DNA of 64,000 nt from an uncultured Opitutaceae bacterium (GTDB taxonomy: Bacteria; Verrucomicrobiota; Verrucomicrobiia; Opitutales; Opitutaceae): the NCBI GenBank assembly GCA_903952145.1, contig CAJBES010000104.1:1-64000 (forward strand). Reading direction: 5' to 3'. The notes under the pieces were generated by a model, which did no database searches, was not told where the DNA came from, and saw nothing but the letters and a program-made list of their open reading frames with translations. A program made the translations under genes and the position numbers. Positions 38,138 to 44,206 of the stretch are shown here, in pieces. Within the stretch, counting starts at the first letter, position 1, and each line of letters begins with the position of its first letter.

Positions 38138-41100
38138 ATGACACCCTTGGAATTCACCATCGATTGGGGCTACCAGTTCCTGTACTCCCGTCGTCACTAT
38201 CATCCCGCTTATTGCTGGGACGGCCGGATCGAATGCCGTGGCGGTTCTATCCACACCGTGCACCAGCTGCGCTACCCCGTGGTTTGGTGGGGCGTGGTCC
38301 TCTCGCCTGAGGAAACCAAGCTGGAGGGTTGCACGTGGCAATCCACCACCCGCCGCGGGATGTCCGGCATCCGCGTGACGGCGGACTGCGGGGAGGCGGC
38401 GGAGTTCGTCCTCGCCACGGCCCAAGGCGAGTTCCGGTTTTCCGCCCGACGGATTCGCGAGGAAGGCCGCATCGTCTTCCCTGTCGGCTCGAAGTATTCG
38501 CACTGCACGATCCTCGTCACGCGCAAAGGCCACCTCTGGTTCCGCCCGCCGCCCTTGCCGCAGGAAACGGCCATTGACGCCGCCGCGTTGCAGGGCGTGC
38601 CGCACGGCAACTGGCAGCGCATGGACCAGGCGTGGATTGCCCCCGGAGCCCGCGCCGGATTCGAACTCACCCTGCCGGCCACCACGGCGGACGGCGAATC
38701 GCATTGGCTGCTGCATCTGCAAGCCATGTCGATGGGCGGCACGCCCGAACAGCCGCAGCTGAACGTGAAAGACTATGTGCCGATCGAGGTGCGGGCCGAC
38801 GGCCGCAGCCTGGCGGCGTTCCGCCATTACCTGCGCTTCCACGACCAACACCTCCAGATTCTCAACGACCTGTGGCTCGAAATCCCGTTCTCCGCGCTCC
38901 TGCCGGGGCCACACCGGTTCGAGTTGGTCAACCAACACCGGACGCTCTCGCTCCTGGTCAACCGCGTATCGATCCGCCCGCGGGTTCACCGGCACCTCGA
39001 CCTGACCGCTCCGCGTTGGGCGCTCGTGGGCCGCGAGTTCATCCTGCGGCTGCAAATTCTGGAATCGGGCGCACCGGTCGCCCTGGATTACGATCCGGCG
39101 GCCTTCCGCCTGGTCTCGGAACTGTCGCCCGATCGTCCCCTGCACGCCGGACCGCACGAGCTCCGCCTGGTGCCGCTGCAACCGCAGCGCGATGCGCGGA
39201 TCGGCGCCACCGACCTGCGCTCCGGGCGGCGCATGACCACGACCCTCGCCGCCATTTACCAGCTGCCGGCCGAGACGCCCGAGGTGAAGATCGGCTACGA
39301 CATGACCTTTGTCGCGCACGACGACACGGGGGAGATGGACTGGCTGCTCGACTACACGCAGCGCACGCAACTGGCCAATCTCGTAATCTTCCGCGCCTTC
39401 ACCCCGTGCCCGATCGCACCGACAACGCTGCAGCGTTGGGGTCGGTTTTGTCGGGAGCACGGGCTGTACGTCGAAACCGTGAACTGTCTGGAAACCGATG
39501 CTCTGCCGGCGGCCGCAGGGGATCACTTTCATTCGGGCGGCACGCACGAACTCAGCGGTGTCGTCTACGCGCACAACCCTGACAACGGCTCCCGCACAAT
39601 GAAGGACGCGGCGGAGCGCTTCACCGATTTCATCCGCGAACCTGTGCGCGGCGTGCGCGCCCTCGGCGTGCCGGTCGCGTTCGGCGATGCCAGCTGCGGA
39701 CACCGCTACAGCCTGATGGCCGGGGCGACCTTTCTGCGCGCGGAGACCATGGTGCCGCACACGACGCTCCTGCTCACCCAGGCACGGCCGGCGGCCCAGG
39801 CGCTGGGCACGGGCGAATGGGGCGTGCACATCGCCATCCAGCACGCCAAGCAGCCGTATCTCGAATCGCACCTCGGCTGGTATTATCTTTCCCTCGCCCA
39901 GCCATGGATCATGGGCGCGAATTTCCTCTACGAGGAGGACAGCCTCTTCGTCATGAGCAAGGAGGAGCGCCAGTGCTGGGACGATGCCTTGACCAAGGGC
40001 AAGCGCGACATGACGCGCGACTTCCTGCGCTTTGCCCAGACGCATCCGCGCACGCGCCGGCCGGAGGTCGCCATCGGCGCCTTGCTCGGTCGCTACGCCG
40101 CACCGTTCAACGGTTTCATCTGCGATTCCGAACAAGACCCCTCCTATTCTGTCTGGGGCCGGTTCGGTCGCACCGATCCGACCTGGGGGCACCGGCAACC
40201 CGAAAAAGCGCATCAGGTGCTTGACGTGCTCATGCCCGGCGCGAGCACGCACCCGCTGCGCCAGCAACACGACCGGCGGCGCTTCTTTTTCTCCGGCTCG
40301 CCCCACGGCGATTTCGACCAGCCGCCCATCGAAGCCGGGCGGGAGTTTCTCGCGCGTTACCGTTTGTTGCTGCTCCTCGGCTGGAATACCCTGATCGAGG
40401 CGGACTACCGCAAGCTCCGGCAATATGTGGAGGCCGGCGGCACCCTGCTGCTCGGCGTTCCCCAACTCTCCACCCACGAGGGCCGCGACTTCCTCCAAGC
40501 GTTCGACGATCTGGCCCTGTATCAGAACGGCAATGTGGCCGACCTGTGTGGCGTCACCATCACCGGTCGCGGTCCGCGCTACAGCGGACGCTGGCAGGCG
40601 GTGGACGAGACCTTCGCCGGAGCAGCTTGCCCGCCACTCTCGCGCGCGCCGAGCGTCGCGCCGGATGAGGACGGCCCGTGTCACGTGGCGGCAGTCAGCC
40701 TGGCTGGCGCACGCCCGGTCATCGTGGATGCGTCCAACCAGCAACCGCTGCTCGTCGAGCACCGGCTTGGCCAAGGTCGCGTGTATCTCATCACGACCTG
40801 GGCTTATCCCGGACACGAAGAGCTGGCCGACTTCTCGGGTGCCGTGGTCGACCGCTTGTGCCGCGAACATCAAGGCGCCTGCCGCGTCGCAGATCCCAGC
40901 CGGGAAGTCTTTTGGACCCACTGGCCCGATGCCGCGGGCTCCGGCAAGCTGTTCCTGCTTAACACCGACTGGACCGAGCGCGGCAACGTGAAAACGGTCA
41001 CGGTCGAGACCCCGTCCCTGCGCTTCGCGTGCACCGTACGCGAACGGGAGATGAGCATCGTCACCCTGCTGCCCTTCGGCGCTTTGGTACAGGAGACGGC

Positions 41101-41320
41101 CGGGCCACATGTGGAAACGCTGCGCATCGCTGCCAACGCAGCGCAACTGCGGGTGCACACCGCCCACCCCACGCGCTTCCGCCTGCACGCCGCCGACTCG
41201 TGGCACGTCCAAGTCGATGGGATATCCGTGCCCCTGTCCGGAGGTGCCGCGCAGGGTTGGAGTTTCGACCTGCCCGCCGGCCCCCTCACCCAACACGAAC
41301 TGCAGATCACCCGGTGTTAG
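38138..41320 (+). CDS. Large uncharacterised protein, putative glycosidase-like (TIM-barrel plus GATase-like region)
   Basis: 1060 aa; LLLLLGWNTLIEADYRKLRQYVEAGGTLLLGVPQLSTH typical of beta-galactosidase-like GATase domains; LLVEHRLGQGRVYLITTWAYPG. Confidence 0.65.
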   Translation: MTPLEFTIDWGYQFLYSRRHYHPAYCWDGRIECRGGSIHTVHQLRYPVVWWGVVLSPEETKLEGCTWQSTTRRGMSGIRVTADCGEAAEFVLATAQGEFRFSARRIREEGRIVFPVGSKYSHCTILVTRKGHLWFRPPPLPQETAIDAAALQGVPHGNWQRMDQAWIAPGARAGFELTLPATTADGESHWLLHLQAMSMGGTPEQPQLNVKDYVPIEVRADGRSLAAFRHYLRFHDQHLQILNDLWLEIPFSALLPGPHRFELVNQHRTLSLLVNRVSIRPRVHRHLDLTAPRWALVGREFILRLQILESGAPVALDYDPAAFRLVSELSPDRPLHAGPHELRLVPLQPQRDARIGATDLRSGRRMTTTLAAIYQLPAETPEVKIGYDMTFVAHDDTGEMDWLLDYTQRTQLANLVIFRAFTPCPIAPTTLQRWGRFCREHGLYVETVNCLETDALPAAAGDHFHSGGTHELSGVVYAHNPDNGSRTMKDAAERFTDFIREPVRGVRALGVPVAFGDASCGHRYSLMAGATFLRAETMVPHTTLLLTQARPAAQALGTGEWGVHIAIQHAKQPYLESHLGWYYLSLAQPWIMGANFLYEEDSLFVMSKEERQCWDDALTKGKRDMTRDFLRFAQTHPRTRRPEVAIGALLGRYAAPFNGFICDSEQDPSYSVWGRFGRTDPTWGHRQPEKAHQVLDVLMPGASTHPLRQQHDRRRFFFSGSPHGDFDQPPIEAGREFLARYRLLLLLGWNTLIEADYRKLRQYVEAGGTLLLGVPQLSTHEGRDFLQAFDDLALYQNGNVADLCGVTITGRGPRYSGRWQAVDETFAGAACPPLSRAPSVAPDEDGPCHVAAVSLAGARPVIVDASNQQPLLVEHRLGQGRVYLITTWAYPGHEELADFSGAVVDRLCREHQGACRVADPSREVFWTHWPDAAGSGKLFLLNTDWTERGNVKTVTVETPSLRFACTVREREMSIVTLLPFGALVQETAGPHVETLRIAANAAQLRVHTAHPTRFRLHAADSWHVQVDGISVPLSGGAAQGWSFDLPAGPLTQHELQITRC

Positions 41321-41543
41321 CCGGATGCCCGCCGCAAGCATGGCCACGCTGGTCCAGATTGATCAGGAACATGGCCACAGAAAGCACCGAAGACCCAGCC
41401 AGAGAGAGCTGCATCCTGTGTTTTGTGCCTCTGGTGGCCAAACTGCTTGGGCTAGCCCAATTTGACGGGCACAAGTTGAGTCCAAATAAAGGGCTCAACC
41501 ATGACCAAGAAGCTGGCAACCCCGGCATGATCCGGCGGGCCAT

Positions 41544-41563
41544 GTTGCCTTGGGCAAGGCAAC
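41544..41563. repeat. Inverted repeat GTTGCCTTG-gg-CAAGGCAAC
   Basis: Perfect 9-bp arms with 2-nt loop in intergenic region 41321-41764. Confidence 0.5.
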
Positions 41564-41764
41564 GCGGCAGGGCCAGCCGCCCGGCCAGTGCAACGGTCGC
41601 CACCGGGTCGCTCGCTCGCGGTGAGCCCAACCCGTGCGCGGCGGGAACCGGGGTTGGCGCGGGCCAACCAAAGGCACGGGGCAGCATTGGCAGGCGCAAA
41701 GCGCGCGGCAACGCCCTGCTTCTGTCCTTGAGCCGCGCGTGGTTTCGGCCACGAATGGCCCCCC

Positions 41765-42472
41765 ATGAAAATCTGCCTGTATGGCGTGCCCGGCACCACC
41801 GCGGCCAAACGTCCCCTCAAAGATCCCCGGCTCGATGCCGCACACAAGCTCGTGGAAGCCGACAAGAGGGCCTACGCACTGGTGGATGTGGCCGGCGATG
41901 ACGGCCTGGCTGACGCCGATGCCATTGTCGCGACGACGGACAGCGTGCTCGATCTGATCCTGCAGGACCTTGAATTCGTCGAAACCCGCCTCGGGAACGA
42001 GCCGGCTGAGGCGGAAAAAGCCGTGCTTTTGAGAATGCAGGCGGATCTCGAAGCGAGCCGTTGCCTGAGCGCGTGCGCCTACTCCGGGGCGGACTGGGCG
42101 GCGGTGAATGCGAGCGGCCTGATCACGCGGAAATCCATCGTCGTCGCCGCGGCCGAGGAGTTGGCGCAACCCGACGCGCTGCTGGTGCGCGCCGTCGCCG
42201 CAGCCGGCTGGATTTCCTTCCTGACCGTCGGCGGCAAGGAAAACCGCGCCTGGCTTATCCGGCAGGGAACGACCGCGTGGGAATCCGGCGGGGCGATCCA
42301 CACCGACATCCAGCACGGTTTCATCCGCGCCGAGATCATCGGCTGGGCGGATTTCATCGCCGCGGGCGGCGAGACGCAGGCCAAGCGCGCCGGCAAACTC
42401 CGCCTGGAGATGAAATCCTACGTGATGCAGGACTACGACCTGGTGAACTTCCGGTTCAACAAGACCTCCTAG
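41765..42472 (+). CDS. YchF-like protein lacking the P-loop; DUF933/TGS C-terminal domain
   Basis: C-terminal SFLTVGGKENRAWLIRQGTTAWESGGAIHTDIQHGFIRAEIIGWADFIAAGGETQAKRAGKLRLEMKSYVMQDYDLVNFRFN matches the YchF C-terminus; N-terminal GVPG without GKS/T, short DVAG and DLEFVETRL remnants. Confidence 0.8.
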   Translation: MKICLYGVPGTTAAKRPLKDPRLDAAHKLVEADKRAYALVDVAGDDGLADADAIVATTDSVLDLILQDLEFVETRLGNEPAEAEKAVLLRMQADLEASRCLSACAYSGADWAAVNASGLITRKSIVVAAAEELAQPDALLVRAVAAAGWISFLTVGGKENRAWLIRQGTTAWESGGAIHTDIQHGFIRAEIIGWADFIAAGGETQAKRAGKLRLEMKSYVMQDYDLVNFRFNKTS

Positions 42473-42529
42473 CCGATTTAGCCTCCAGCAGCCGGCCCCC
42501 CTGATTGCCCGGGCCGTTGGGCCCGGGCC

Positions 42530-44206
42530 TCATTTGCCGAACCCGCTGAAGTGCTTCACCTCGTCGGGATACTCGAAGCAGGTCTGGTAGGTCTTCGCGC
42601 TGGCGGCCAGCTTGAGAAACACGTCGAGCGGCACGATCTCGACCGGACCCCGGAGCTGCGTGATCATGGCGACGAGGCTGGCCACCGAGTTGGTTTCGCG
42701 CACGTGCACCAGCAGGAAGTAGGGCCGCCGGGGATTGAGCGCGATCAGCTCGTTCATATCCGCCGCCACCGCATCGCGCGGCCGGTTCGGATCGATATAG
42801 TAATCGTAGGAGATCATCGGGCGGCTGTCGCGCAGGTCGCGGGTGTGGGCCGGGCCGTAGCCGTTGACGAAGCCGATCACGTCGGGGAAGGCCTCATAAT
42901 AGCGATCCACGATGTCCTTGGGCAGGTCGGCGTTGCCCACGTTGCCGTCGGCGGCCGAGTTGTCCAGGATCTCCAAAACCGGGAGATCCAGCAGCTGCAT
43001 CATCGCGCCGGCCTCCTGCATCAAGGGGGCGAAGCGGTCCGCCGGGATGTGCTTCGGATACATGTAACTCGGCGCGGAAAGCCCGCCGATGAGATAATCG
43101 TTGGGGGTGGCCGACTCGTAGAAATATTGCAGGGCGGCGGGCGAGAACAGCGACCAGTCCATCGGCACCTGCCAGGCAAACGGCATTTTGCCGCGGTCCG
43201 GACTGGTCCACGCGCTGAGCCCCATCTGGTCGGACTGGACAAAGGAAATGTAAACCTTCGGCCCGGGCGTCAGCTGCGCGTCGCGCGCGACGCTGTGCCG
43301 GTTGGCATATTTGAACCCGGGCGTAACCGTAAAGAGGCAGTTGAAGCTGAGATTGGGCAGATTATACAGCCCTTCCATTTTCAATCCGTAGGTGGAGGTC
43401 AGGGTCACGTGCTGCTCCTCGGTGTCCTTGCTGTAGGGATGCCAGCCGAAGACATACCCGTCGCGATTCACGCCGGCCAGGATGCGCCGCTCCAGGGCCG
43501 TTTCCTCCGGATACTTAGGATTAGCCGCCAGGGCCTCGAAAAACATCCGCTGGGCCACGCCAATGTCCGCCATGGCCGGCACCATCACCGCCCCCATCTG
43601 CCCGCCCATCAGCATGACCGCATCGTGGTTGCACCGCGCCCAGTAGCGGTCGTAGGCGTCCTGGTAGATCTGCACATCCGCCTGACCGGTGTAGCGGCCG
43701 CGCAGGTCGTCGATCTGTTTCAGCCTCGCCTTTTCCACGAGCGGGATCAGGTCCGCCGTGACCACCACGGCGTCTTCCAACCCCGCAATGGTGAACGCCA
43801 CATTGAGCGAGGAACTCACCTGCGGGTCCCACACCACGTAGCCCTTCGCATGGCCCTTGAAAAGCTCCAGGACGGCGGCGCCCGTTTTGATCTCGGTGAA
43901 GCGCACCTGGTATCTGCGCTGGTAAAATTCATACAATGGTCCGGGGATCTCCCATTGGTAGTCCGGCGCCTGCATGATATACAGCTGCGGTGCCAGGCGG
44001 TTGGCCAGCCCCTGCAGACTGATGACCATCGCCTTTTCCGGCAGACCGCCCACCACCCGCCAGTCGGAGTCAAACTGGATCGACCAGGCCGCGGCGCCGA
44101 TGTGGGCGGCGCGGGCCGGGAGTTTGAGTTCGGCCCAGGTCCGGGGCGCCGCAACGCCCCAGACCAGCACGCCGACCAAGGCAACCAAGTATGATGTTCG
44201 CTTCAT
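42530..44206 (-). CDS. GxGYxYP-family exported protein (variant motif)
   Basis: Signal peptide; SLQGLANRLAPQLYIM; GGLSAPSYMYPKHIP in the place of GxGYxYP; VNGYGPAHTRDLRDSRPMISYDYYID. Confidence 0.7.
   Translation of the reverse strand: MKRTSYLVALVGVLVWGVAAPRTWAELKLPARAAHIGAAAWSIQFDSDWRVVGGLPEKAMVISLQGLANRLAPQLYIMQAPDYQWEIPGPLYEFYQRRYQVRFTEIKTGAAVLELFKGHAKGYVVWDPQVSSSLNVAFTIAGLEDAVVVTADLIPLVEKARLKQIDDLRGRYTGQADVQIYQDAYDRYWARCNHDAVMLMGGQMGAVMVPAMADIGVAQRMFFEALAANPKYPEETALERRILAGVNRDGYVFGWHPYSKDTEEQHVTLTSTYGLKMEGLYNLPNLSFNCLFTVTPGFKYANRHSVARDAQLTPGPKVYISFVQSDQMGLSAWTSPDRGKMPFAWQVPMDWSLFSPAALQYFYESATPNDYLIGGLSAPSYMYPKHIPADRFAPLMQEAGAMMQLLDLPVLEILDNSAADGNVGNADLPKDIVDRYYEAFPDVIGFVNGYGPAHTRDLRDSRPMISYDYYIDPNRPRDAVAADMNELIALNPRRPYFLLVHVRETNSVASLVAMITQLRGPVEIVPLDVFLKLAASAKTYQTCFEYPDEVKHFSGFGK

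Follow-up and report, generated by a model that had tools for sequence, protein, structure and literature searches.

A compact YchF-like protein without an NTPase core in Opitutaceae and related lineages

Introduction

YchF/OLA1 ranks as a universally conserved NTPase and is included in the minimal translation machinery, and the purpose of its ATPase activity is unresolved (PMC8779481, PMC11237923). YchF is found on ribosomes and has a positively charged cleft, formed by its helical domain together with its TGS domain (PMC8779481). In OsYchF1, 26S rRNA is bound by the TGS domain (PMC10144078). N20, a helix-1 residue of the ATPase domain, is the point from which E. coli YchF was mainly cross-linked to 30S proteins and IF3 (PMC8138138). 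We found no description of a YchF protein without a G domain in the open-licence literature. Here we describe such a protein, encoded in a contig of an uncultured Opitutaceae bacterium (CAJBES010000104.1, positions 1 to 64,000; this whole stretch of 64,000 nucleotides is called the window below).

Results

The gene and its domain matches

The compact YchF-like gene without an NTPase core, as characterized by its reading frame, Pfam match, orthologs, and structure model, occupies 41765..42472 on the + strand; the parts of the gene given below lie on the same strand. It encodes 235 amino acids, with the ATG at 41765 and the stop codon ending at 42472; the open frame of 235 codons lies exactly where the initial annotation had put it. 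Its GC content of 66/46/83% at the three codon positions is that of a typical coding frame in a GC-rich genome. A promoter and terminator scan of 41250-42600 gave no signal above chance.

The C-terminal third had been read from the sequence alone as a YchF/OLA1 TGS domain, and the HMM search agreed: residues 150-232 (42212..42460) match PF06071 (YchF-GTPase_C, the DUF933/TGS domain) with E=3.9e-30 and 104.2 bits, above the gathering cut-off of 27 bits. The TIGR00092 equivalog model matched with 101.7 bits over its C-terminal 88 positions only and did not reach its cut-off of 279.2. A phmmer search of PDB sequences returned YchF/OLA1 chains only, the best being 1jal (E=5.1e-23, residues ~140-233). 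The P-loop motif GxxxxGK[ST] is present in all 40 canonical YchFs and in none of the 35 compact proteins that we compared; no GK[ST] was found in the 25 aligned compact orthologs.

Deletions relative to full-length YchF

Deletions were mapped against the full-length YchF of the same genome. Six collinear deletions were recovered, each missing in at least 90% of the compact proteins. The first removes 27 residues (NVGKSTLFNALT...NYPFCTI) after GVP, and with them Walker A, helix 1, and switch I. The second takes 18 residues of switch II (LVAGAS...FLAS) after DxAG, and the third 22 residues (VVRCFEDADVIH...PVRD) containing the segment FEDxxVIH, in which we take the catalytic histidine (His114 in E. 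coli) to lie. The fourth shortens the tip of the helical hairpin by nine residues, the fifth removes 38 residues from NVAE (the G4 motif NxxE) through the G5 region, and the sixth removes 19 residues of the linker 3' of the G4/G5 block. Strands 1-4, the KDPRLD helix, the two helices of the hairpin, and the TGS domain are kept in order. An hhalign comparison of compact and canonical YchF, spanning 224 columns with E=3.1e-37, agrees with this map. The N-terminal part is shorter than the YchF G domain, as had been noted, and the six deletions are what removed its nucleotide-binding motifs. The suggestion of a stand-alone DUF933/TGS protein does not hold, since YchF's first strands and its helical hairpin are also kept.

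In the window, the YchF alignment places the first strand, MKICLYGVP, at residues 1-9 (41765..41791; strand at residues 2-6 in the model), with the 27-residue deletion at the junction 41791/41792. Strand 2, the KDPRLD helix, and strand 3 follow at residues 10-47 (41792..41905), up to the 18-residue deletion. The strand LADADAIVA is aligned at residues 48-56 (41906..41932) and is followed by the 22-residue deletion. The helical hairpin (41936..42052), which includes DLEFVETRL, has predicted helices at 58-77 and 82-96 according to DSSP of the model, aligns to YchF, and has the nine-residue shorter tip in the deletion map. A short linker helix and strand, aligned at residues 115-138 (42107..42178), stand where residues have been lost, 38 from G4/G5 and 19 more. 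A start site misplaced within a full-length YchF was rejected as an explanation: the frame is open for only ~11 codons upstream, and the six deletions are scattered along the alignment.

The stretch GVPGTTAAKR had been taken for the Walker A position. That it contains no P-loop is correct; it is, however, not a mutated Walker A motif, because the block was deleted outright. According to the alignment, this position is a deletion junction at which GVP is joined directly to the second strand of YchF: the segment 3' of GVP, with a conserved [GA]-K, aligns to the YchF strand NVGVVTVPD. The DVAG remnant (41885-41896, within the residue 10-47 segment) is a genuine G3 leftover in the window protein, although the 18 switch II residues directly after it are gone. 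It is not a conserved feature of the family: DxAG occurs in 6 of 35 compact proteins (6/25 in the group that includes the window protein, hereafter compact A, and 0/10 in a second group, compact B).

The conservation of the rebuilt N-terminal segment raises the possibility of a ligand sensor without hydrolysis, which would bind an alarmone or nucleotide in a non-Walker pocket formed by G14-K15 and KDPRLD. G14 and K15 hardly vary in A4, and canonical YchF shows no conservation of K15; K19, D20, R22, and D24 are invariant in 25/25 compact A sequences; and AtYchF1 is reported to bind ppGpp (PMC9748339). Every known base- or phosphate-contacting motif has nonetheless been deleted, G4 NxxE among them, K15 aligns to a strand and not to the P-loop, and the window protein itself has an alanine at position 14. 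We consider a sensor quite improbable.

Structure prediction

AlphaFold2 modeled the window protein from a 25-row alignment with a pLDDT of 92.3 and a pTM of 0.84. In a Foldseek search against the PDB, the model matched YchF/OLA1 with E values of 1e-15 to 1e-19, including YchF on the 50S subunit (8kie_y); all remaining matches were to more remote relatives (Rbg1) or to TGS domains on their own. The structural check proposed with the initial annotation thus returned a confident model whose strong PDB matches are limited to YchF/OLA1. No significant match was found in a viral structure library. A compact B protein was modeled with a pLDDT of 95.0 and the same order of secondary-structure elements as the window protein; its TM-score to YchF, normalized by query, reached 0.84.

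Orthologs, selection, and distribution

Among 200 genomes of the window's family, 13 besides the window's own contained a full-length match (56-80% identity), while four other genomes of its genus, when searched, contained no full-length compact match. A scan of named genomes added 11 full-length orthologs (56-83% identical), which sit in Verrucomicrobia subdivision 3, Pedosphaera, Limisphaera, and Opitutaceae MAGs. The compact A orthologs, which had been proposed as a check, were thus found with the same deletions across many Verrucomicrobiota families. They are 233-235 amino acids long with a common C-terminal end point, and 25 compact A sequences align over their full length with a mean column identity of 74%, well beyond a chance resemblance.

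Pairwise dN/dS values were 0.05-0.22 for the whole gene, far under 1, and 0.04-0.23 for the N-terminal 148 codons alone; the window gene gave 0.13-0.22 against its two nearest orthologs. Ordinary purifying selection acts on the entire protein and extends to its shortened N-terminal part; decay is excluded. The missing catalytic domain is what would speak for a functionless gene, either a YchF duplicate in decay or an artefact of truncated annotation. Against it stand the dN/dS values, the deletions and length shared across many families, conservation over the full length, and the confident fold, and we give this reading next to no credence. An assembly artefact or chimera was ruled out by an 80% identical copy in G003, a genome assembled as one contig. 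The view that the gene is a streamlined YchF derivative without a P-loop, maintained and not decaying, is borne out alike by the HMM matches, fold, orthologs, and dN/dS.

We define the compact NTPase-less YchF family by a length of ~230-235 amino acids, a full-length match to the N-terminal compact profile, the absence of a P-loop, and a PF06071 C-terminus; the window protein has all of these features. Within the class, scores against the compact profile are bimodal, with compact proteins at 135-195 bits and anything else at or below 37. Compact A is patchily distributed, occurring in 23 of 287 genomes of the class from ~14 families. In another phylum, that of the Acidobacteria MAG L044, no compact protein was found in 297 genomes, and the best among the matches listed were hairpins of full-length proteins. 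A compact gene on a contig labelled Acidobacteria (L039, JANLHE010000589.1) nests inside the Opitutaceae compact clade; this contig is probably misassigned or misbinned.

Paralogue or sole copy

At 93% completeness, with 4.05 Mb in 341 contigs, the assembly that the window comes from contains exactly two PF06071 genes: the compact gene and, on another contig, a full-length YchF with a 403-codon frame and the P-loop GLPNVGKST. The separate full-length YchF that the initial annotation had suggested looking for is therefore present, and the compact gene is a paralogue in this genome, not its sole YchF. Genomes with compact A usually have two PF06071 genes. One genome, G723, has three, with frames of 406, 370, and 237 amino acids. 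In three compact A genomes that are 85-93% complete (G599 and G604 of genus g252, with their compact matches at L125 and L127, and G662), we found no full-length YchF; replacement of YchF may have begun in the compact A clade too.

A phylum-wide search with the N-terminal profile recovered compact B in families f32, f47, and f61. These proteins (L048-L057) are 229-233 amino acids long and share 26-32% identity with the window protein. Each of the 11 compact B genomes has a single PF06071 gene, the compact one, and a TIGR00092 search at a permissive threshold found no full-length YchF in these 11. The same search recovered a full-length YchF from both sister genera, G237 and G400, and in the compact B genomes it gave N-terminal matches of a kind expected for other Obg-type and related GTPases; the search therefore worked. 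With seven of the 11 genomes 90-95% complete, it is very unlikely that the full-length gene is missing by chance from every one of them. Nearly all genomes in a 150-genome sample of the class of these compact B genomes have one PF06071 gene, and in f47 it is the compact one in each of the six genomes sampled. The NTPase-less compact protein is the sole YchF homologue in the 11 compact B genomes.

These counts bear on whether the compact protein might be a protein-protein adaptor or antagonist working off the ribosome, which would pair with full-length YchF, or bind another protein through its TGS face, and so tune YchF or a stress pathway. A full-length PF06071 protein is found with compact A in 17 of 20 genomes of a class-wide sample and in the window's genome, and known TGS domains contact proteins: that of OLA1 binds BRCA1/BARD1 (PMC8779481), and that of OsYchF1 contacts OsGAP1 (PMC10144078). 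However, compact B genomes offer no full-length YchF as a partner, and the patchy co-occurrence requires none. We regard an adaptor role as unlikely.

Phylogeny and type II YchF-like proteins

Canonical YchF, compact A, and compact B each form one clade with full or near-full support; compact B is thus not a recent truncation of a local canonical YchF. A quick tree placed both compact groups on the same side of a branch with an SH-aLRT of 83, whereas a more careful tree did not group them; the branches are long, and the AU test (p=0.475) neither rejected nor established a single origin. That the two groups share an identical set of deletions speaks for a single origin.

We also encountered full-length type II YchF-like proteins of 342-359 amino acids in Verrucomicrobiota, mostly with the P-loop GLPQ.GKKT and without DxAG (loci L058-L060, L062, L064, L096, L097, L099, L102, L104, L110, L112, and L119). 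GKK occurs in 13 of 16; its second lysine in GKKT occupies the place of the Mg2+-binding Ser/Thr. One locus listed with them, L109, reads GKAT, and L061 and L063 form a separate pair beside type II with GKTT/GKTA. In several genomes, for example G414, G277, and G374, type II is the only PF06071 gene, and it seems to have replaced canonical YchF there too.

Compact A, compact B, and type II have the hairpin signature ETRL-x-R in common. E73 and an arginine at position 78 are found in 100% of type II and compact B sequences and in 100% and 96%, respectively, of compact A; the window protein itself has N78 instead of the family's arginine. This signature, together with a GKKT P-loop without DxAG in type II, suggests a path that would have led from a degenerate P-loop to a deleted core.

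Neighborhood

In the window, the compact gene has as its neighbors the adjoining ORF 38138-41320 (+), which encodes an unassigned protein of 1060 amino acids, and a convergent gene for a GxGYxYP protein. The 1060-amino-acid ORF has no Pfam match at E<=0.01. The place of the compact gene beside sugar genes had been called odd, but it carries no information, as the neighborhood is not conserved across 32 compact loci. In these loci, no neighbor recurs other than the compact gene itself and antisense or alternate-frame ORFs that overlap it. The genomic position gives no clue to function and no tie to translation.

Discussion

The window gene is a member of a conserved family and not a single oddity, and in some lineages this family provides the sole YchF. 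As to what the protein does, we think it fairly likely that it is a pseudo-NTPase from a YchF-type ancestor that modulates translation as a constitutive, nucleotide-independent binder of the ribosome or rRNA. The whole apparatus for nucleotide binding and hydrolysis has been excised, and the small sheet that is left would brace the helical hairpin and the TGS domain. Hairpin and TGS would dock on the ribosome or rRNA as in YchF, but no switch driven by ATP would be at work, and the surface of helix 1, through which E. coli YchF touches the 30S subunit and IF3, is lacking. The compact paralogue would work alongside full-length YchF in the window's organism, and in f32, f47, and f61 a protein of this kind has taken the place of YchF.

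We infer binding to ribosome or RNA, and a regulatory role, from the parts that are kept. The basic cleft and rRNA-binding parts remain and the N20 helix is lost, so a nucleotide-independent ribosome or RNA binder with a changed interface appears likeliest; with helix 1 deleted, the binding mode cannot match that of E. coli YchF exactly. The TGS part of the compact proteins is more basic than that of canonical YchF (median pI 8.1-8.4 versus 6.9). The compact proteins are acidic overall (median pI 5.5), which counts against the explanation that we favor, as do the patchy distribution in the class and the lack of a translation-linked neighborhood.

Tentatively, we put forward a wider reading that may well prove correct or may not. 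An NTPase-less protein of ~230 residues would have replaced YchF in at least three family-level lineages (f47 in 6/6 sampled genomes, and parts of f32 and f61), so that the essential part of what YchF does would require neither nucleotide binding nor hydrolysis; in Opitutaceae and relatives, a nucleotide-independent branch would exist beside YchF. The compact family is a natural separation-of-function experiment, in which evolution has removed the catalytic core and isolated the helical/TGS part. It allows one to ask directly if ribosome binding and translational control require a nucleotide.

Among known systems, YchF/OLA1 itself (TIGR00092, an Obg-family P-loop ATPase) shares the DUF933/TGS domain, the hairpin, the first strand, and the fold neighbors with the compact protein. 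It has ~365 amino acids compared to 235, and the compact form has lost the block of Walker A, helix 1, and switch I, as well as switch II, the segment of the catalytic histidine, the hairpin tip, and G4/G5. Type II YchF-like proteins have the same hairpin signature but, unlike the compact proteins, keep a full-length G domain. Compact B agrees with the window protein in its six deletions and its secondary-structure order; it differs in sequence (26-32% identity) and in being the sole PF06071 gene. Other ribosome binders with a TGS domain, Rel/RelA/SpoT and Rbg1/DRG, have the TGS fold in common with the compact protein and gave weak Foldseek matches. In contrast to them, the compact protein has no synthetase, hydrolase, or GTPase domain, and the matches are TGS-restricted or far weaker. 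PseudoGTPase domains such as those of p190RhoGAP and degenerate septins (PMC5593906, PMC10731463) are also inactive derivatives of the GTPase fold. These, however, are eukaryotic, belong to unrelated families, and were inactivated by point mutations, whereas in compact YchF the catalytic elements were deleted.
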